NCBI GenBank assembly: GCA_002077065.1
Contig: NAJO01000002.1
Span: 372,001-436,000, forward strand
Direction: 5' to 3'
DNA: 64,000 bases
From: Cryoendolithus antarcticus
Lineage: Eukaryota; Ascomycota; Dothideomycetes; Cladosporiales; Cladosporiaceae
The notes under the pieces were generated by a model. The model was not told the origin of the DNA and made no database searches. It was given only the letters and a program-made list of their open reading frames with translations. How positions within the stretch are numbered: the first letter of the stretch is position 1; each line of letters starts with the position of its first letter. Both the position numbers and the translations under genes were made by a program. Below are positions 27,490-59,872 of this stretch, one piece after another.

Positions 27490-27564
27490 GGCATGTGTGT
27501 CATATATAGCAAGGACAGTGTGGATTGATGGGCGTCGTCCGCGATAACATCATCCGCTGTCAGC

Positions 27565-29538
27565 TCATACAAGCGCGACCTCGGTCTCGCAGGCTGCTTG
27601 CTTGTTGAAGGATCGAGTAGATAAAAAGCAAATACCGATGCGACTGAACAATGGCTTTGCTGTACGCACGTCGTGACCATCTGCCTTGAGAACCAGAGCA
27701 ATACTTGTAACCTCACTCTCCCTGAACAGCTCCATGATATACACACTTTGGCCGTCGGCTGGGATGTTGTCTGTGGTATCGGGAACGAACTCATGCGCCG
27801 ATCGCCCGGCTGCGGTGAGAATCTTATCGGAATCGCACCCTTGGAGCGCCCCGTGTATCCTGGGGTCGAACAAATAGGCGTATTCGGTGCGACAGCCCTG
27901 TGTATGTTTACGGTCCCTGGCGACGGTAGACACAATGATCATTCTCTGCAGGCGTCCACGTATCCTGATAGAGCACTCCAGGAATCTACCCAAGGGATTA
28001 TCGAGCGCTGGCTCGAGACAGACAACTTCCGCCGTGCTCACCTGGCGATAAGAAGCATGCCATGGCTCCTTGAAGTACTCGCAGGCGCCGATGCGCGATG
28101 CCCAGGAGAATGAGGGGACGATATATTGTGCGTGCGGAGGTGGGTCTCGCAGCTGACGAGGCCATACGCCGCAGTTTTCACAGCCGCTGTTGAGAGCGCC
28201 AAAAAGTGCGATGCGGGCACTTTTCCAGCAAAGCCAGCGAACGATATCGTGGGACCAAAGCCCAGCTACGTAGTCACCCATGCCGTGCTTCTGCTGAAAG
28301 CGTCGCGCAATGCCAGCGAGGCCGGGCAAGATGTCCCACGGTCGGCTGAAAGCCTTCTGTGTGTATTGGGCAACAACCTCCCGCCATTGTTCGGATGGTG
28401 ACTTGCAGCCGATTAGTCCGGGACGTTTGTCCTTCGCGATGCAGAACTCATGGGGAATGCGGACTTCGCACTGACATTTGATACGACCTCGAGAGTCCTC
28501 GTGCAGTACTTCTGTCCCCGTCAAATGTAAAATTTGCTGCGAAAGCAATCTCTCCTGGTAACACCAACCCCTACCATATATCTCATCAGGGGGAACATCA
28601 CCAACTCCGCCCAGAACTGGGCCAACCGAGGATAAAAACTCATGCCTTGGCACTCTTCGACAATATAATGTCCCAGCTAGCCCGGACAAAGTCGTTGAGA
28701 TTGGACATGATTCGTACGACGGTAAGATGGATTCTCCAGCAGATCCGTGAGCTGCTATAGTGAAATGCGCATTTTCGTAGATAGTGTCCATTTGGGCTGC
28801 CTGCTGCTCCCAGTCGACCGGATCATCTTGGACTATACACAGACTGTCGATCCAAATGTACTGGATACTGAGCCATCTGCAGACCATGATGGCCTCTCGA
28901 AATGTCTGCGGGAGCGACTCGACATCGATAGAATCGAGACGGGAGTGCAGGTTTGCTGCCGTGGTGGTGGGGATAGTTCGATTCACCCAGCAGTGACTCA
29001 GCGTCACGTAAGGAGCAGTCTCTGCCGTGGGCTCGAGCAGTCGAAGAATAGAATCACCTTGGCCTGGCCGTCGACGCAAGTCAAGCACCCGGCGTGGTAA
29101 TGGATTTTCTTTCAATGTGTGTCCAATCCATCGTTGCAACTGCGTCCGGACAGCCTCATCCCAGAATCTTGTTGGTGGCGCATAGAACTTGATGGCACTG
29201 TTAGTACCCGAATCTTGAGGCGACCGTGGACTAGGGCCAGCTTCCACTGATTGCACAGGCGCCGTTCGGTAGAACTGAACAGTGGTTTCCACACCTGACT
29301 GTCCTAGAATATTTTGGAGTGTCAATCGGAGTGTCTCGGTCACGCAATAAGAGAAGATACTAGGGCTGACTCCTAATCCTACCCCAGTTATGCCATCCCA
29401 CAGAATCTTACAGAATGGACATGTGGCCGAGCTAGCAGCGAGCGATAATGAATAAATTGTAGCCTTTGATCGATACGCAACAGCATTCATAGCAGCCTCG
29501 TCTAGATCGTGACAAATGGCACATGCATCCTGGGACAT
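27565..29538 (-). CDS. Heterokaryon incompatibility (HET) domain protein
   Basis: Single exon, 657 residues, ATG at 29536-29538. The N-terminus has the Cys pairs often seen in these proteins (CAICHDL at 6-12, CPFCKILW at 40-47). The HET domain starts at about residue 177 with PYVTLSHCW, followed by LPQTFREAIMVCRWLSIQYI, the hallmark WIDSLCIVQDDPVDW, and YENAHFTIAA. The C-terminal half is typical HET-associated sequence (YGRGWCYQERLLS). HET domains trigger cell death during non-self recognition between fungal strains; the partner and trigger of this one are unknown. The frame is intact. Confidence 0.93.
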   Translation of the reverse strand: MSQDACAICHDLDEAAMNAVAYRSKATIYSLSLAASSATCPFCKILWDGITGVGLGVSPSIFSYCVTETLRLTLQNILGQSGVETTVQFYRTAPVQSVEAGPSPRSPQDSGTNSAIKFYAPPTRFWDEAVRTQLQRWIGHTLKENPLPRRVLDLRRRPGQGDSILRLLEPTAETAPYVTLSHCWVNRTIPTTTAANLHSRLDSIDVESLPQTFREAIMVCRWLSIQYIWIDSLCIVQDDPVDWEQQAAQMDTIYENAHFTIAAHGSAGESILPSYESCPISTTLSGLAGTLYCRRVPRHEFLSSVGPVLGGVGDVPPDEIYGRGWCYQERLLSQQILHLTGTEVLHEDSRGRIKCQCEVRIPHEFCIAKDKRPGLIGCKSPSEQWREVVAQYTQKAFSRPWDILPGLAGIARRFQQKHGMGDYVAGLWSHDIVRWLCWKSARIALFGALNSGCENCGVWPRQLRDPPPHAQYIVPSFSWASRIGACEYFKEPWHASYRQVSTAEVVCLEPALDNPLGRFLECSIRIRGRLQRMIIVSTVARDRKHTQGCRTEYAYLFDPRIHGALQGCDSDKILTAAGRSAHEFVPDTTDNIPADGQSVYIMELFRESEVTSIALVLKADGHDVRTAKPLFSRIGICFLSTRSFNKQAACETEVALV

Positions 29539-29871
29539 CTTGTAGACTCGTCAAGCTTGGTTCGTATCGCGAATCGCAGTACAATGATAGACGAAGCTCC
29601 ATGCTCACGAAGAGGCGGCTCGGTCAGCCTCGTTGCTGGACACGGCCATCGGAACCACGCGCTGACAACGTGAGGATCAAGCGAGTGCCAAGCGATCGTG
29701 CCGAGAGTCACCTCGATCGTGACGTTCGCAGCGCCTCCGCTGGGATAGCATGCGCTCTGTCGCATGCCAAAGACAAAAGTGTCTCAGCCGCTCATAGTCC
29801 ACGCGAGGTAGGTAAACCTCCCTTTCGCAGTCCACTTTCATTCTCTGCCTCTCGAGGCTCAGATCGGTACA
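29539..29871. promoter_or_regulatory. Divergent promoter region: HET gene / hydrolase gene
   Basis: 333 bp shared upstream region. No distinct motif was recognised. Confidence 0.3.
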
Positions 29872-30927
29872 ATGTCGTCCACCGGTCCAGAATCCAAAGC
29901 ACCTCCGCCGTCCTCAATCCGCCTAATACACCGCACGAACCGCACCCTCCCCACGCATGCGCTCCACCTGATCCTCCGGCCCCTCGCCCCTTTCCTGACA
30001 AAAGACCGCAAGACCTTCCCCCAAGGCTCACCCCAACTCTCGATCCCCGCCTCAGCCAGAAAGCGCGCTACAGTGACAGAGCGCAAAGTATGCGACATCT
30101 TCTGCTACGACATCGTTGCCAAATCGTCCTTCTCGAAAGCGGTCAGGAACAGCGATAGATGTTCTCGATCGCCGAAGCGGATCTACTACTTCGCTGGTGG
30201 CGGCTGGAGAGGCCCGCCGAGCGGCGAGCATTGGGGATTGGTGGTGGAGCTGGCGAAAAGATGTCCTGACACGACTGTGACGCTGGTGTCGTACCCGTTG
30301 GCGCCTGCGAGTCCGGCGCCAATGGCGTTCCCGATGTTGCAGAAGCTGTATGCCGAGGTTTTGGAGAAGTCAAGACGGGATGGGGAGAAGGTGATACTAG
30401 CGGGCGACTCGGCGGGTGGGAATATCGTCCTTGCTCTTATCTTAGACGCAGTGATACAGCAGGGCGAGCAAGGCGAGAAATCACTAGTATCAGAGTCAGA
30501 GCCGCTTCTACCAGATGCGATTCTGGCAATAAGTCCCTCCACCGACCTCCGCCGCTCGAACCCCGACATCGCCAAAATCGCACCAAACGACCCCATCCTC
30601 CGCATCCCCTTCATCAAAGAAACGGCGGCGGGCTGGAAAGGCAACTGGGACGCCTCGGATCCTCGATTGTCCCCTCTGCTCGCGCCGGACTGGGCTTTCA
30701 CAGCTCTAGCCGACCGAGGCGTGCAGATTCACGGCCTCACAGGCGGGTACGATATCCTGTACCCGGATGCGGTGTTATTCAGGGAGAAGTGCGAGAAGGC
30801 TGGCGTGCAGGGGGAGTGGCTGCATTGGGAGAAGCAGATGCATGTCTGGCCTTTGACTTGGAAATTTTATTTGCCGGAGGCGAGGGAGGCGAAGCAGTGG
30901 ATGGTGGGGGTTTTGGGGAGGTGTTGA
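29872..30927 (+). CDS. Alpha/beta hydrolase fold-3 esterase
   Basis: Single exon, 351 residues, ATG at 29872. The oxyanion-hole region is RIYYFAGGGWRGPP, a variant of the usual HGGG motif with Ala-Gly-Gly-Gly. The nucleophile elbow is GDSAGGN (Ser180), and the other triad residues fit Asp294 (GGYDILYPDA) and His324 (KQMHVWPL). This layout matches the hormone-sensitive-lipase-like group that includes fungal steryl acetyl hydrolases and secondary-metabolite esterases. The N-terminus lacks a clear signal peptide. Substrate unknown. Confidence 0.85.
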   Translation: MSSTGPESKAPPPSSIRLIHRTNRTLPTHALHLILRPLAPFLTKDRKTFPQGSPQLSIPASARKRATVTERKVCDIFCYDIVAKSSFSKAVRNSDRCSRSPKRIYYFAGGGWRGPPSGEHWGLVVELAKRCPDTTVTLVSYPLAPASPAPMAFPMLQKLYAEVLEKSRRDGEKVILAGDSAGGNIVLALILDAVIQQGEQGEKSLVSESEPLLPDAILAISPSTDLRRSNPDIAKIAPNDPILRIPFIKETAAGWKGNWDASDPRLSPLLAPDWAFTALADRGVQIHGLTGGYDILYPDAVLFREKCEKAGVQGEWLHWEKQMHVWPLTWKFYLPEAREAKQWMVGVLGRC

Positions 30928-41242: not shown

Positions 41243-43790
41243 ATGAGCGTACGCCGTCGTGGTGAGGCGAAGCAAGCCAACGGCTTCGCAAGCGGGCGCG
41301 CCAATGGCCACTCCAATGGTCGTCTGCGTGGCCAACAGGGAGTGCTAAGTCCGACAGACGCGAAGACTGATCATAGCCGATGGCGATTGCGGGATACTAA
41401 TGGCGTTCATACGTGGCATTACCTTGAGAGTGAAGAGCAGATTGCAGCATGGCCTCAGTCGGCTGCTGAACTACATTATCTTGGCCAGGATACAGTGAGT
41501 GGACGTTGACTTGGAGCACACTTGATGTGATACTGATCACGACAGGGTGCGCCACCTCTGCCTAAAGCAGCAACACCACTCCAAGCCGCAGAAAATGGCA
41601 TCGCTTTCTACGAACGCATGCAACTCCCCACCGGCCACTGGGGTGCTGAATACGGCGGCCCAATGTTCCTCATGCCCGGCTACGTGATCACCTGCTACGT
41701 GACCGAGTCTCGCTTCTCGCAAGCCGAAGAGACAGAGATGATACGCTACCTCTTCAGCGTACAGAATCTCGGAACCAAGAACGGTGGCGATGGCGGCTGG
41801 GGACTGCATGTTGAAGCTGATTCTTCTGTCTTTGGGACTGCGATGAACTACACGACTTTACGACTGCTTGGTGTACCGGCTGAGGATCCGAGGATGAGGA
41901 GAGCGAGAGGATGTTTGTATGATCTGAATGGCGCCTTGCTGGGGCCGCATTGGGCGAAGTGGTGGTTGAGTGTCTTGGGGGTGATGGAGTGGGATGTGGT
42001 CAATCCGGTACCGCCTGAGTTGTGGTTGCTACCGGACTGGGTGCCTATCGCTCCATATCGATGGTGGTACGTAAAGAAGGCATTCGTCCAGGTGCCACTG
42101 CAATCACCTGCTTTCGTTCATCTCACATGTGCTGACGATTACTTTCCCACCTTGTAGGATCCATATGCGGCAAGTAATGCTTCCAATGAGCTATATCTGG
42201 TCAAAGCAGTGGGTATATCCCAAGGCCGACTCGGATCCTCTAATCCGCCAGCTAAGGCAAGAGCTGTTCACGCAATCACACGACGAGATCAAGTGGGCGA
42301 GATACCGAAATGCTATCAGCCCAGCTGATAACTATCACCCAAAGACGCATTTGTTAGACTTCCTCAACCTGATTCTAGTTCTACTATGGATCCCCTTTCT
42401 CCGCACAGCAGCTATCGCTCGCAAAGCTGAGGCATGGACGTGGAAGCTCATACAGATGGAGGATGCTAATACAGACTATGGATGTCTAGCAACCGTGAAT
42501 GCGCCGATGAATACGCTTGCTTGCTTTGTAGCAGAAGGGCTGGACTCTCACTCATTCAAGCGCCATCGCGAGAAGCTGCACGAAGGGATGTGGATGACCG
42601 GCCGAGGCATGCTTGTCTGCGGTACGGACGGACTTCAGACCTGGGACACTTCACTCTCGATTCAGTCTCTCACAGGCATTGGGCTCGCGCACGAGGCGAG
42701 ATACAAGTCCATGCTGTTGGAGGCTCTGAAATTCCTGGAGACTCAACAATTCTCGGAACATTGTCAGGGCTACGAAGCATCCTCGCTATACTCTGACCCA
42801 CCCACCGCGAAGTTGAGCGCTCAATTCGCCTACAGGCACCCACGAAAAGGCGGCTGGGGCTTCAGCACCAAGTGTCAAGGCTACATAGTCTCCGACTGCG
42901 TCTCTGAAGCTCTCAAAGCCGTCCTCCTGTTGCAGACTACGACTAACCCGAAGGACACCTCCCAAAAAGTCTTCCCCGAAGTCATGTCCTTCGAACGCCT
43001 CCGCTGGGCCGTCGACATCATCCTCTCCATGCAGAACGACACAGGCGGCATCGCATCCTACGAGACCCGCCGCGGTAGCACCAAGCTTGAAGTGCTCAAC
43101 GCAGCCGAAGTCTTTGGCCGCATCATGGTCGAGTACGATTACCCAGAATGTACCACCTCCTGCGTAACAGCCGTCCACCTCTTCCGACAAGTCTACCCAG
43201 ATTACCGGACTAAAGACATCGAAACCTTCATGACCCGCGCCGTAGACTGGATTCGCAAAGACCAAAGAGAAGATGGCTCCTGGTACGGCAGCTGGGGAAT
43301 CTGTTTCACCTATGCCGGCTTCTTCGCGCTCGAATCGCTCGCCACGCAAGGCGAGACGTACGCGAACAGCGAGAGGGTGCAGTGGGCTTGTAAGTTCTTC
43401 CTGGATCGGCAGAATGCTGATGGCGGGTGGGGTGAGAGTTACAAGAGTTGTGAGACAGGCAGGTGGTGTGACCATCCTGATGGGAGTCAGGTCGTGCAGA
43501 CTGCTTGGGTTGTGTGTGCGATGCTTGAGGCGAAGTTTCCGCATCGGGAGCCGTTGGAGAGGGCGGTAAGGTTGATGATGGAGAGGCAGCAGGAGAATGG
43601 GGAGTGGTTGCAGGAGGGGATTGAGGGGGTGTTCAACAAGAGCTGGTGAGTATGAGATCGGCTGCGCGGAATCGTAAAGTGATACTGACAACGCTGCAGC
43701 ATGATCTCGTTCCCGAATTACAAGTTCATCTTCCCAATCAAGGCGCTGGGTATGTATGCTAGGCACTTCAGCGATGCTGGAGCGGAATAG
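41243..43790 (+). CDS. ERG7: Lanosterol synthase (oxidosqualene cyclase)
   Basis: Four exons: 41243-41494, 41546-42066, 42158-43645, 43700-43790 (introns 51, 91 and 54 nt). Spliced product 783 residues. The enzyme cyclises 2,3-oxidosqualene to lanosterol in the ER/lipid droplets. Visible: several QW repeats (ENGIAFYERMQLPTGHWG, KGGWGFSTKC, QREDGSWYGSWG, NADGGWGESYKSC), the catalytic acid motif VSDCVSEA with Asp504, WYGSWGICFTYAGFFALE, and the C-terminal GVFNKSCMISFPNYKFIFPI, which is the lanosterol-synthase form and not the form I associate with protostadienol synthases. The first 40 residues are a Gly/Asn/Arg-rich extension longer than in yeast. ERG20 is in the same window but the genes are not adjacent. 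Confidence 0.94.
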
Positions 43791-46364
43791 CAACCGGGAT
43801 AACGAAGGCTCCTATGGCGAGAGACACGAGCTTTTACACGCATACCGCAGGAGATATAATCCATTGAGGTCGGCTCTAGTATCAGTGCGTCTTCAGCGCT
43901 GCGTACGTGTTCAAGACCGAACTGAATTCCTTCCAGTATAGGCTACCTGAAACCAGATCCGCCAAAACCTCTCTGCCACATATGCTGATGGCATTCCGCG
44001 TACTACGGGCGGGATGTTGGATGCTCAGTTGGCTGTTCCTTCGGTCCATCTGTCAGAGTAAGCCCTATCTTGGCTCCGCTACGACTCCTTCGCGCCTGTG
44101 TCTTCACTATTTCCGAAGCGGAGGATCAGGCTCTGCTTGGTAGTGTTGAGGTCTTCCATTTCTTGCGTCATCCATTCCACCCAGTCGATCACCGGCGCTT
44201 CGTCTGTGGGAATGACGGGGTTCGCCGCCTCATGCGCAAGATCCACTTCATAATCGGCTAGATGGGCATGCACAGCAGCTGTTCGGACACGCTCCCATCT
44301 TTCTGCAAGATCTGTAGGCTCAGACTCGCGAGCGGCCACCAGAAGTCCTGCCGCCTTGTGATTAGTCCAAGCGGCGTGGTCGAAGGCGGTATGTCCGCGG
44401 CCGTTCTTGATATTCAACGAAGGGTTGTGCAGGAGTAGCAACTGAATGCTTCCAAGTCGGTCAAAATCGTCCACATCACATTCCCAGTATGCCGCCTGTA
44501 CTGCCCCGTGTAGCGGCGTACAACAATCATTCGAGTCACACGTTACGTTTATGTCAGCGCCACAGCGTAGTAAATGTTTCATGATTTCTTGATGCCCGTG
44601 GGTGGAGGCCTGGTGAAACGCAGTCGTCTCTCCTGAACTGGTACGAGCGTTGGGATCAGCACCATGCTCTAAAAGTAAGCGTACGATGTGAGTGACACCG
44701 GCTCCAGATGCTCGCACGATTATGGTATCTCGATTGGCGTCCGCACCACGTTCCAACATGTACGCGATCCTTTTCACGTTTCCGCACATATATGCGTGCT
44801 GGATCGCTGTGTGAATGGACTGATCCGGCTCCGCTTGGGGTTTCTCTGCATGTGCACACAGGGTATCTGCCAGGGAACGGACCCACGGCATGCTGTCGGA
44901 GCATACAGCCACATGGAGCGGAAGCATGTCAGGTGGCAGATATGGGTAATAGTAGTCTGCGTGGCTCTGCCATAGCGCCCAGCACGAGTATGCTGCAGAC
45001 GAATTCGAGGTGAAGAAACTCATCTTTGTTACTACCTCGGAGGCAGCTTCGGCAGCTTCCTGAAGATGAGAAAGCCAATAGTGCCAATGATAGGCCGCGT
45101 CACTCGACATCGGGCAGCTGTCGTCTTGACACATGGGCAAAGTCCCAGACGAGGAGGTTGGACAGTGGCGGCACCCAGTCGAAAGAGCGGTCACGCAGTC
45201 TTCCACAAGCCGTACGTGAACTTTTTCGACCTGCCATACATAGCTCGCTCCTTTCTTGCCTGTATGCTCCGCGGTATTCAGCAAATACTCTTTGACGGTG
45301 TCGTGCACGAAATTAACTTGTGTGCGGTTCCTATAGCGGGGCACTGGCTGGAGTAGCGTCTGGAACCGAGTGTTACCGAACAAGGTATCCCAATCATGCG
45401 CTTCTACTTCTTGCAGCTGCAGGAAAGGCCCACACAAAGCGATGTGGTCGCAGGTGAGCTCTATCTGCTCTTCAAATGCTGTTGTGGTGGGGCGTAGCAA
45501 AAATGCCAGTTCGCGGACGTGGAGTGGTCGTTTCGCCATAGCCACCCACTGCAACACTCGGACTACATCCGACTTGCAGTCGTCCTCGATATCGTCCAAG
45601 ATTCGGCGGTAGATACCGAAGAGACCTTCGGGCATCTTCTCCAGCGACTCCATGAGTCTGGTGTACGTTCCCTTTCGTGCGCACGCCGAGATTGCAAAGC
45701 TGATCCACAAGAAGCTACCCTGTGCACGCTCAGCCAAATCAAACTCGAGCATGGTCCTCTTGGCTTCGCTTAGATCAAGGCGATCTGCAATGGCTGTAGT
45801 CGCGGTGGAGATGTACAGCCGCACGTCCGATGCGATTTCAGGTGATGCCGCACCGTCTAGATCGATGTGTCTGGCGGATCGCAGGTCCAGCGTTGGTCTG
45901 CTGAGGCCCAATGTGCGCAGTATAGTTAGCCCGCCGTCAGGCCCGTTGCCAATGAGCTTTCTGGCGATCCAGTCTTGATCGTCTGAGATGCACTCGTCCA
46001 GCCCGTCAATGATACAATAGACTTCTCGTTGCTGCAGGGCGCCCACCAGCGCAGTGAACATCTTCCACATGGTCTCCGGCTCAGACATTACTTGCTTGCT
46101 CCGGACTGTGGACACCATGCACTCGCTCAAATGATTGACCAACTGCGGCTCGGCAGCAGTGTTGACAAGCTGCCAGATCAGGGTACGCATCATCGCCGTC
46201 GCATTGTCTCTTCGCGGGTCACCGGCCATGAAAAAGTAGTACACAAGGATCGAGCGTTTCATGAGATCGAGCTCTCCAGTCAGGTAGATTGACAACATAG
46301 TCTTGCCCTTTCCGGGCCCGCCACGAATATGAAGTAGATGTGGCGCATCATCTCGCCACGATTT

Positions 46365-46367
46365 TTA
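46365..46367 (-). other. In-frame TAA codon inside the NLR reading frame
   Basis: Reads GCG-TAA-AAA on the coding strand. Upstream and downstream segments share the frame exactly, with no insertion or deletion. Confidence 0.9.
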
Positions 46368-46508
46368 CGCTGCATGTCGTTGGATCCACAGGCAGGTACC
46401 CTGTATTGGCGCGCCCTTAAGTCTTTCAAGCTTGTCGCGATCCACTGCCGGATCGGTAACGAATAGTGCATCTAGATAGTCCTTGGCAGTCTCCAGAGAT
46501 GGGCTGAG

Positions 46509-46613
46509 AAAGTGCTGTGCCTGAGCTATGTATTGCGTGTTTTGCATGCCACCGCTCATAGTTGCGTTCGTTTGTTGACCATTACCACTGTTGAGATTCT
46601 GAGGGCCAGGGCC
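46509..46613 (-). other. Sigma-type motif coding segment of the NLR
   Basis: Encodes residues 17-51, starting GPGPQNLNSGNGQQTNATMS. Aligned without gaps to the effector motif (47509-47613), 19 of 35 positions are identical by my count, mostly Gly, Asn, Gln, Thr and the final aromatic residues. Confidence 0.85.
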
Positions 46614-46661
46614 GATCGCGAAGCCTGATACTGCGGCCGTGAGTTCCTCTGCTTCCGCCAT

Positions 46662-46947
46662 ATTGGATTAAACTCCTTCGTCAAATGGCCAAGATGTCTT
46701 AGCCTGTACAAATCTACATACGTCTAGACAGCTTCCTACTGAGCGAGGCTCCGTGAGTCTGCGACACGGCAGAAGGTGATCGGGATAGCCGGAAAGCCAG
46801 GCAGCACAGCATCTCACCGTTGTGGACAGTCCCGTGAACCTGCTTTCTCGCGGCATCTAGCTGCATCCCGGATATGCGGATGCCCGCTTCCGTTGCTGGG
46901 ATTGAAATACCAATTCTCAATCTCGTTCACTGGTCGCAATCCGCTTC
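46662..46947. promoter_or_regulatory. Shared divergent promoter of the NLR/effector pair
   Basis: 286 bp between the two start codons. The short gap suggests a bidirectional promoter and co-regulation. No TATA box was recognised. Confidence 0.5.
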
Positions 46948-47631
46948 ATGATGTCTGGTGCCGAAGTTGTTGTTGTTCTTGGTGTCATCTCATCCATCAT
47001 CGCAACTCTAGACGGACTCAAGAAAGTGTGGGACGCCGCCCACAACGCGAAAGGACTCTACGAAGCTTTTCGGAAAGTCGCAGAGAACATACCGTTGGTG
47101 CTCAGTACGCTCAAGAAAGTGCAGCAAGCGCTGAAGCTGGACTCCATGAACTCCACCGACACCACGCATCAGGAGATCATTGATCACTCTGCAGACGACA
47201 TCAAGCCAGTCTTCGAGACCTGCCAAGTCAATGCAAAGGCACTGCGCGAGATCTTTGGAGAAGTCGTACCAGCCGACGAAGACTCCAGAATGGAGCGATA
47301 CAAGAAGGTACTTAGCACGGTCTCGCCGGGGAAGAAGAGAAAAGTAGAGGAACTGATGAAGGAGATCTTGGAGAAGTTGCAGCTGCTCCACACACACCAG
47401 TTTTTCAAGCAAGTGGTGGGTCAAACGGGCTTGGAAGATGCAATCAAGGAGCTCGACGCGGTCGAGCCATCTCTGCCAGATGATGAGGGTGGGAAGTATG
47501 TCAACACTGGGTCCGGTCCGCAGAATATCCACGAAGGGTCGGGTGAGCAGTACAACAACACCATCAGCGGAGGGGAGAGGAATGTCCAGTATGTTGCGAA
47601 GAGCCAGACGTTCGGCGGACCAGGGCACTAG
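46948..47631 (+). CDS. SesA-type cell-death effector with C-terminal sigma-type motif
   Basis: Single exon, 227 residues; two adjacent ATGs (46948, 46951). The N-terminal ~150 residues match the fungal SesA-like N-terminal domain in pattern: a hydrophobic start (AEVVVVLGVISSIIATLDGL), then AKGLYEAFRKVAENIPLVLS and a helical bundle with KKVQQAL and VEELMKEILEKLQLL. Residues 188-222 carry the motif GSGPQNIHEGSGEQYNNTIS ending in QYVAKSQTF, the same as in the NLR across the 286 bp gap. In known systems such small proteins are switched on when the NLR's motif seeds amyloid conversion of theirs, and the N-terminal domain then damages membranes. Activity here is inferred from architecture. The frame is intact. 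Confidence 0.85.
   Translation: MMSGAEVVVVLGVISSIIATLDGLKKVWDAAHNAKGLYEAFRKVAENIPLVLSTLKKVQQALKLDSMNSTDTTHQEIIDHSADDIKPVFETCQVNAKALREIFGEVVPADEDSRMERYKKVLSTVSPGKKRKVEELMKEILEKLQLLHTHQFFKQVVGQTGLEDAIKELDAVEPSLPDDEGGKYVNTGSGPQNIHEGSGEQYNNTISGGERNVQYVAKSQTFGGPGH
47509..47613 (+). other. Sigma-type motif coding segment of the effector
   Basis: Encodes residues 188-222, the likely prion-forming region; partner of 46509-46613. Confidence 0.85.
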
Positions 47632-58257: not shown

Positions 58258-58594
58258 ACACTGCATCAAGGCATCTAACGAAATGGAGGTGTCGCAGAAC
58301 GAGGTCTGGCCTTTGTGTCCCCTTCGCATGGGACATAGAAAGTTCAGAACTATAATGACACTTCAGCCACTCATAATCACGATGATTCCATATCACACCA
58401 ACGCCAACCGTGACGCCGTGCACAGGCATTACCGACGACCAGGTAAGCATCCGAGTCTCTAGCACAGTCACACACCCCTCTTACCCCCTCATCACCTCTT
58501 TTGCTTGCCCTCTTTGCATAGCAGTGCTTGCCCGCGGCATTCCACTAAACATGGCTGCGCGGTTTCTCGCTTCACTTCCGTTTGCTCTTTCGCT
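58258..58594. other. Intergenic region
   Basis: 337 bp between two genes in the same direction; nothing distinct seen. Confidence 0.3.
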
Positions 58595-59872
58595 ATGGCG
58601 GTACTACTGCACAACCTGGCGGTCGTCAATGCAAGAGTCGCAAGCAGCAATGATACCGCGACTATCCCACCCTCGCCGCAGAACGTCGATTTTGGTACGA
58701 GAGAGATCGGCTGGCAGGCACTCGGGCCGGCGATAGCCTGTACTGCGCATGCAACCATAGCGGTCGCGTTGCGATGGTATACGAGGTGGAAAATCAGTCG
58801 GTGTTTGGGGAGGGATGATGTGGTGATTTTGTTCTCGATGGTGAGCGATTACTGTGCGAAAAAGTTTGGAATTTCGACTAACGAGATTACACAGATCTTG
58901 ACATGGTGCATGTGTGCCATCATAGGCGCCGAGCTGCACGAAGGCATGGGTGTCTATTCCAACAGCAGGATGATCGACCATCCGCATCTTGCCAAGCTGG
59001 CGGTAACTAACAATGATATCTGGGCTCTGGCTGTCAACGCTACAAAAGCGTCCATACTGGTGCAGTACCTACGTATCTTCAGTGACCGAGTCACTCGGAC
59101 TTGCTGCTGGATCCTTATGGCTATGCTGGTGCCAGCTGTGACATGGGCGAGCTTTGGCGGGACCTTCTTATGTAGGCCAGTGGCGAAGCTGTGGCATCCG
59201 GATCTTCCGGGGACTTGTTTGAGTGCTGAGGCTTACTGGCTTTCAGCTGCTGGGATTAACATCGGACTGGACTTCCTGGTGCTGATACTGCCATTACCAG
59301 GAGTCACGAAGCTGCGACTGCCAAGAAAGCAGAAGATCTGCCTTGTTGCAGTCTTCTTGTTAGGGTTCTTCGTCTGCCTTGTGAGCGTCGTGAGGTTAGC
59401 GACAGTTTGGACGGAAGCGAAGCGTGGGAACTTTGTTGGTGAGTTGAACAAAGCGACGCCGCGCAGATATTCTGCACTGACACTACACGCAGAGTCTGGC
59501 GTCCAAGCCATCATCTGGTCCATCGTCGAAGCGAACGTTGGCATCATCTGCGCTTGCCTCGTAGCATACAAGCCATTGCTGGCCAAGTACTTCCCAAGTA
59601 TGTTCGAGGAGCACGCCGTACCCGAGCACTGCATGCGCTTGCCGATGGTAGAGACTTCAGATGGGAGTACATCGGGAGCGAGGCTTTGCGCGCCGCCAAC
59701 GAACTCCCAGCCGTCTTCGCCATCGACGTCGAAGAGCCGCGACACGTTCATGACTATGCAAAGCAGTAGTATTGCTGCAACGATCAATGGAGCGCCTCAG
59801 GCGGAAGGGATGAGCTTCCTAGATATGCTTGCTTCTGGACCGGGAGAAAGGTCACGGACAATACGCCAATAG
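58595..59872 (+). CDS. Rhodopsin-fold (PTH11-like) integral membrane protein
   Basis: Three exons: 58595-58840, 58895-59438, 59493-59872 (introns 54 and 54 nt, both multiples of three without stops, with GACTAAC and CACTGAC branch sites). Spliced product 389 residues. About seven transmembrane helices with fungal rhodopsin-domain features: RWYTRWKISRCLGRDDVVIL, AELHEGMG, KASILVQYLRIF, CRPVAKLWHPDLPGTCLS, LVLILPLPGVTKLRLPRKQK, and IIWSIVEANVGIICACLV. The tail is cytoplasmic and Ser-rich. Such proteins include Pth11-type receptors for surface cues; no CFEM domain is present here. Ligand unknown. Confidence 0.88.
   Translation: MAVLLHNLAVVNARVASSNDTATIPPSPQNVDFGTREIGWQALGPAIACTAHATIAVALRWYTRWKISRCLGRDDVVILFSMVSDYCAKKFGISTNEITQILTWCMCAIIGAELHEGMGVYSNSRMIDHPHLAKLAVTNNDIWALAVNATKASILVQYLRIFSDRVTRTCCWILMAMLVPAVTWASFGGTFLCRPVAKLWHPDLPGTCLSAEAYWLSAAGINIGLDFLVLILPLPGVTKLRLPRKQKICLVAVFLLGFFVCLVSVVRLATVWTEAKRGNFVGELNKATPRRYSALTLHAESGVQAIIWSIVEANVGIICACLVAYKPLLAKYFPSMFEEHAVPEHCMRLPMVETSDGSTSGARLCAPPTNSQPSSPSTSKSRDTFMTMQSSSIAATINGAPQAEGMSFLDMLASGPGERSRTIRQ

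Follow-up and report, generated by a model that had tools for sequence, protein, structure and literature searches.

Comparison of a 64,000-nucleotide stretch of the Cryoendolithus antarcticus genome (the window; contig C62, positions 372001-436000, in an assembly of 46.97 Mb and 149 contigs) with the rest of the genome and with related proteins revealed what is probably an ancestral sigma-type pair present as two homeologous copies, one of them in the window, in which the SesA effector has been kept and both receptors have been truncated. The pair consists of divergent genes for a NACHT-ankyrin NOD-like receptor (NLR) and for a small SesA protein, which share a 35-residue motif. A literature search found no paper on this locus. 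We take this fungus to have been known earlier as Rachicladosporium antarcticum. For R. antarcticum CCFEE 5527, an assembly of 47.4 Mb with 18,781 genes has been published (PMC5502844).

A motif common to receptor and effector

An earlier, sequence-only reading of the window had aligned the two segments, one near the N-end of the receptor and the other at the C-end of the effector, without gaps and with 19 of 35 residues identical. Both the positions and the count proved exact. When one segment was shuffled 200,000 times the best match had 12 identities out of 35 and the mean was 3.1; the regions surrounding the segments gave an ungapped BLOSUM62 score of 114, the maximum among 2,000 shuffles being 51. 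Chance or composition as the cause of the match is thus ruled out. Gly, Asn and Gln make up 18/35 and 14/35 residues of the two segments. By reading, with no statistic attached, motif units 1 and 2 fit the published sigma types A (GxGxQFN) and B (GGTQNINT) well, and unit 3 (SGGxxNxQY) is loosely like type B and is followed by an extra xAxxQxF (PMC3321046).

The motif is confined to very few places in the genome. When a 97-residue N-terminal piece of the receptor was searched against all six frames of the genome at expectation values (E) up to 10, the matches were limited to the piece itself, the paralogue on contig C1 and the two effector tails (E 2.5e-7 and 5.5e-7). The effector used in the same way found itself, its C1 paralogue, the N-ends of both receptors, a short SesA-like fragment on contig C148 and two weak matches.

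Both proteins were compared with the SesA and NACHT_sigma profiles, as the sequence-only reading had suggested. The effector matched SesA (PF17107) from position 1 to 122 of 122 with 112.5 bits (cut-off 26.3). Its tail matched NACHT_sigma (PF17106) at 18.9 bits, under the cut-off of 27.6, and over profile positions 3-27 of 42; the window receptor gave no NACHT_sigma match. Nine receptor sequences with a full or partial motif, including two forms of the window gene, were scanned, and the metagenomic P0069 alone matched this profile, weakly (18.1 bits). The Het-s prion family (HRAM) was absent from the Pfam matches of receptor and effector at E≤1.

A search of the protein collection gave a family of 63 effectors, the window's own included, which show 30 to 100% identity in the aligned region and bear the names Cryoendolithus, Oleoguttula, Cladosporium, Hortaea or Polychaeton or, in many cases, no name. 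SesA was found in all 54 members that were scanned, and NACHT_sigma, at E≤0.05, in 19 of these. When nine effectors were scanned singly, only the distant P0063 exceeded the NACHT_sigma cut-off (30.4 bits); P0001, P0002, P0003 and P0004 stayed below it, and P0016, P0022, P0024 and P0033 had no match. Judged by eye from the last 58 residues (for P0002 also from those before), 56/63 effectors have a full Gly/Asn/Gln-rich tail, P0054, P0055, P0060 and P0061 stop short of it, P0062 is partial, and P0057 and P0059 end differently. Stricter patterns were present in fewer members (third unit, 39/63; G.G.Q.N, 46/63). Two broad tail types could be told apart by reading, one window-like (PQNI...QxNNTISGG) and one Hortaea-like (MFINPG.GTQ.NY.QSG).

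A hidden Markov model (HMM) was built only from tails of other fungi, using 52 of the 63 effectors; both Cryoendolithus sequences and the one from Oleoguttula were excluded, as were eight that were incomplete or divergent. It matched the N-end of the window receptor with 39.1 bits. For the receptor, a profile search in which the 8,000 candidates sharing most words were scored gave 51 rows, including the public record of the window gene; with the C1 receptor added, seven of these 52 stored sequences matched the tail HMM, always near the N-end, and none of the others did so at E≤10. The third-unit pattern, which was drawn from these same sequences, is present within the N-terminal 75 residues of the same seven receptors and absent from all 544 later 75-residue blocks. 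The rows carrying the motif near the N-end are P0064 (the public record of the window gene), P0067, P0068, P0069, P0072 and P0075, to which the C1 receptor (P0065, translated here) is added; P0066 begins inside the motif. The remaining rows lacked the motif pattern over their first 75 residues. Among the profile-search rows, no receptor that bears the motif has a Hortaea or Cladosporium name, and the single named Cladosporium receptor, P0083, is without the pattern. A protein-collection search with the first 110 residues of the receptor returned its own public record only. Overall, these results support a sigma-type locus, whose motif is a variant largely overlooked by the Pfam model.

With regard to effector structure, AlphaFold (54-row alignment) predicted a helical bundle for residues 4-169, the first helix spanning 4-22, and gave a predicted local distance difference test score (pLDDT) of <50 over most of residues 178-226. 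In fold comparison with VIA-align, MLKL executioner-domain entries took five of the top 11 places, at Z values common to unrelated helical bundles. Since MLKL ties with other helical bundles, an MLKL-like fold is not claimed. Foldseek returned nothing for the effector at E≤0.001, and a search of PDB sequences with the effector profile nothing meaningful (best E 0.068).

An in-frame stop in the window receptor

The sequence-only reading had given the outer bounds of the receptor gene and did not mention a TAA codon within it. This is the only stop in 859 codons and divides the receptor into 98 residues (motif and linker) and 761 residues (NACHT and ankyrin repeats) in the same frame; the frame is therefore not intact from the motif through NACHT to the repeats. 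With the stop read as X, the NPHP3_N profile matched over positions 1-140 with 102.5 bits, and the downstream frame alone matched over 13-140. The start of the profile match lies upstream of the stop, indicating that the stop is inside a conserved domain and not in a spacer. All domain matches of the 761-residue frame were above their cut-offs: NPHP3_N (88 bits; 24.8), NACHT (28; 26.7) and Ank_2 (66.7; 27.3). There is no ATG between the TAA and the P-loop, and the first in-frame ATG after the stop directly follows the P-loop, so internal initiation would not yield an intact NACHT. In the relatives compared, the stretch around the stop is retained in translation and is stop-free.

The receptor could nevertheless be functional if the stop is spliced out, stems from an error in the assembly or is bypassed by readthrough, and the pair could then signal through the motif as the sequence-only reading proposed. 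The public model B0A48_00903 (P0064, 578 aa) does join across the stop by means of a 48-nt intron, a GT...AG stretch of this length surrounds it, and nothing else interrupts the frame. We nevertheless consider this unlikely. The intron would remove 16 codons that are kept by the C1 copy, by relatives from Rachicladosporium (P0067) and Oleoguttula (P0066) and by metagenomic ones, and NPHP3_N drops to 84.2 bits in the public model, profile positions 1-19 being lost. The same model omits not only this conserved start of NACHT but also the ankyrin repeats, and its putative acceptor is GAG. Such an acceptor is unusual for fungi. The public model is probably a gene-caller artefact. As to assembly error, the 41x Illumina depth given in the genome paper makes a wrong substitution unlikely, though possible (PMC5502844). 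Since its receptor is cut by the stop, the window locus as assembled probably senses nothing. Repeat-induced point mutation was considered as the cause of the receptor lesions and found no support, the dinucleotide indices of both receptor copies being near the window background.

The positions of all features of the pair are collected in Table 1. The distance of 286 bp between the two genes, given by the sequence-only reading, holds if it is counted between the receptor ATG at 46661 and 46948, where the first ATG of the effector lies; relatives of the effector start at the second ATG (46951), and this family-supported start gives 289 bp.

Table 1. Features of the receptor/effector pair, in window coordinates
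Feature	Position	Strand
NACHT-ankyrin receptor gene (NLR) with one in-frame stop; public B0A48_00903 has a different exon model	44079..46661	-
Best-scoring ankyrin repeats of the receptor	44541..44759	-
NPHP3_N / NACHT-type nucleotide-binding region (102.5 bits, stop as X)	45972..46400	-
P-loop (Walker A) GGPGKGKT	46299..46322	-
In-frame TAA within the NPHP3_N-matched region	46365..46367	-
N-terminal open frame of 98 aa: sigma-like motif and linker, ending at TAA	46365..46661	-
Receptor 35-residue Gly/Asn/Gln-rich sigma-like motif	46509..46613	-
Divergent intergenic region, 289 bp	46662..46950	
SesA effector, 226 aa, open frame (upstream ATG 46948 possible)	46951..47631	+
SesA domain PF17107 (113.6 bits in six-frame search)	46987..47388	+
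Sub-threshold PF17106 match in effector tail	47494-47571	+
Effector C-end 35-residue sigma-like motif	47509..47613	+

A second copy of the pair on contig C1

A second head-to-head pair lies on contig C1, and its effector is public B0A48_00685. The intergenic region there is 288 bp long, with 196/282 aligned bases matching those of the window, and the pair portion 45411-47621 is 69% identical to C1. To the left of the pair, window 1-43765 corresponds to C1:1658655-1700360 in collinear blocks of 82-88% DNA identity with gaps between them, one 283-bp block having 72%. Beyond the pair no further match was found on C1 up to 1725999 at E≤1e-10, and window 52041-58257 matches C1:1379594-1385809 in reverse (85%). 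The collinear left side and the right side reversed elsewhere on C1 show that this genome region is doubled and that the pair lies at a rearrangement breakpoint. The collinearity suggests that the genome is doubled or hybrid and that the breakpoint, from an inversion or a translocation, adjoins the 3′ end of the effector.

Both effectors are open frames. The C1 receptor has a 370-residue frame from its ATG and is cut after NACHT: a one-base deletion takes the homology out of this frame, the original frame is taken up again further on, and the middle of the receptor contains in-frame stops, two in one piece and four in a longer piece. The sigma-type pair of the sequence-only reading is accordingly supported, as far as sequence comparison goes, by the SesA match, by the tail HMM and by the repetition of the pair on C1; as assembled, it is not an intact pair, the receptor being broken in both copies. 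In a related genome, that of Oleoguttula sp. CCFEE 5521, effector LTR95_015220 and receptor LTR95_015219 have consecutive locus tags and are both on 5,810 bp contigs, so that the two very probably adjoin.

Rates of amino-acid-changing (dN) and silent (dS) substitution between the two copies differ along the pair. For the effector dN was 0.143 and dS 0.961, and the 43 codons around its motif were the most constrained stretch measured (dN 0.035, dS 0.629; two amino-acid and 10 silent differences), the tails themselves being identical at 34/35 residues. The silent differences argue against gene conversion of the tails. The first 343 comparable receptor codons gave dN 0.41 and dS 1.446, and the receptor motif was less constrained than that of the effector (dN 0.283, dS 0.795). 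Seven neighbouring frames (eight rows, one gene appearing twice) had dN of 0.001-0.081 and dS of 0.22-1.15. The C1 matches of three of these eight rows contain 1, 1 and 2 stops, at residues 613/638, 10/727 and 43 + 61/1249 of stop-to-stop frames. We do not read these as lesions, because they are near frame ends, where the frames may leave the coding part.

These rates also bear on whether the shared segment is a mere trace of homology, the tails being low-complexity Gly/Asn/Gln sequences that serve ordinary contacts or condensates and not amyloid signalling. Their simple composition and the pLDDT of the effector tail would agree with this. However, the order of residues is conserved beyond composition, as the shuffles fall short of the match; no other part of the effector that was measured is as constrained as the segment; its occurrences were confined to the N-ends of receptors and the C-ends of effectors; and it fits, loosely, the three G-rich units published for sigma (PMC3321046). 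Tails without an amyloid role are thus quite unlikely.

It seems to us just as improbable that the receptor pieces are working products, the 98-residue sigma-only piece of the window and the 370-residue sigma-NACHT piece of C1 acting as seeds, brakes or sensor-less triggers of the two effectors. The sigma end is open in both copies, the effector tails are nearly identical between them, and Rachicladosporium sp. CCFEE 5018 has a similarly short receptor (P0067, recorded as 359 aa), which of all those compared is the nearest relative of the C1 copy (58.8% identity; support of 0.995 in FastTree). As judged from the proteins, however, P0067 departs from the shared sequence about ten codons from the point where C1 does, which may mean two independent decays; the similar lengths may then be a coincidence. 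The weaker constraint on the receptor motif also speaks against working pieces.

Seven SesA matches were found in the genome. Five of them (on C128, C116, C75, C13 and at C1:209 kb) lie upstream of or within a same-strand P-loop frame and therefore look like single-gene receptors; the only stand-alone SesA genes are the window and C1 copies. The C148 fragment (C148:13677-13784) covers 36 residues and is 58% identical to the SesA domain of the effector, with no convincing receptor piece within the surrounding 5 kb; it is perhaps the relic of a third copy.

Other genes of the window were noted in passing. A HET-domain frame at 27565-29550 (minus strand, 661 aa; PF06985, 91.2 bits) lies in a stretch, 27490-29872, that has no match on C1, and would be a second incompatibility-type gene differing between the homeologs. 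Beside the receptor, an oxidosqualene/squalene-hopene cyclase frame at 42075-43649 (plus strand; PF13243, 111.3 bits) has the dS of 1.15 with its C1 copy, above that of the other neighbours measured. A frame at 58463-59872 (plus strand) matches PF20684, 'Fungal rhodopsin domain', with 188.3 bits.

Relation to known sigma loci

In Nectria haematococca, sesA and sesB stand beside het-eN, whose product combines NACHT with ankyrin repeats, and the motif is made up of two submotifs that recur three times (PMC3321046). NACHT-ANK receptors with such motifs have already been named (PMC4986451). Since the Nectria sigma loci share the NACHT-ankyrin receptor, SesA and the motif, the window pair is of a known kind; the sequence-only reading had taken the ankyrin sensor for a departure from the usual, and this does not hold, as HET-eN, the founding sigma receptor, is itself NACHT-ankyrin (PMC3321046). 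Common to the window and the Nectria s locus (HET-eN, SESA, SESB) are an N-terminal sigma motif on the receptor, an adjoining SesA protein with a C-end motif, and, in a loose fit, three Gly-rich units (PMC3321046, PMC5485727). The window motif differs from that of the s locus in its third unit and in its C-terminal QxF end (PMC3321046), and its fit to the sigma profile is weak and partial; the window receptor is moreover broken, and the pair is doubled on homeologous contigs. In earlier sigma loci motifs grouped by cluster, whereas here the receptor motifs are slightly nearer to each other than to those of the effectors (21-22/35 against 17-18/35 identical residues for window, C1 and Rachicladosporium). 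Ses_B had no match in this genome and none in the control genomes either, so its absence is not shown.

Other systems are less close. NWD2/HET-S of Podospora anserina is likewise an adjacent receptor/effector pair with a common short motif, shown or thought to pass on an amyloid fold, but it has two 21-residue effector repeats in place of one sigma-like segment, HeLo and not SesA, and WD and not ankyrin repeats (PMC4518210). PNT1/HELLP/SBP of Chaetomium globosum, with the PP motif, also has an N-terminal motif on the receptor and a C-terminal one on the effector (PMC5485727); by reading, the PP pattern is absent from both window 35-mers. Single-gene receptors of SesA-NACHT-ankyrin kind, which the five genes described above resemble, combine the same SesA domain with a NACHT-type receptor but apparently unite effector and receptor in one gene, where no shared motif is needed.

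By analogy with this family, from which amyloid state, templating, death activity and ligand are carried over, the NACHT-ankyrin receptor of an intact pair would bind a ligand and oligomerise, and its N-terminal sigma motifs would build an amyloid seed. On this the corresponding SesA tail would convert, releasing the helical SesA domain to damage the cell. In the homeologous pairs considered here, the effector has remained under constraint, its motif above all, whereas the cut in the window receptor separates motif from NACHT and that in the C1 receptor follows NACHT. The window effector would then be an orphan, or would be served by the remaining sigma-bearing fragments. Going further, the sigma-type pair of this Antarctic lineage may have shed its sensor twice, both effectors and their tails staying under strong selection, and the leftover sigma pieces (98 aa in the window, 370 aa on C1 and 359 aa in Rachicladosporium) might drive or restrain SesA with no ligand being sensed, acting like the prion-like switch as which the sigma element was originally described. 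We regard this as a long shot.

The locus adds a sigma-type pair from a rock-inhabiting Dothideomycete, in a sequence group that the curated sigma profile mostly misses. For annotation, it follows that the public receptor model of 578 aa is probably wrong. It also offers a natural case in which a doubled genome stretch retains two death effectors and breaks both receptors. If this is true, what maintains selection on an amyloid-controlled death protein once its sensor is gone becomes testable.

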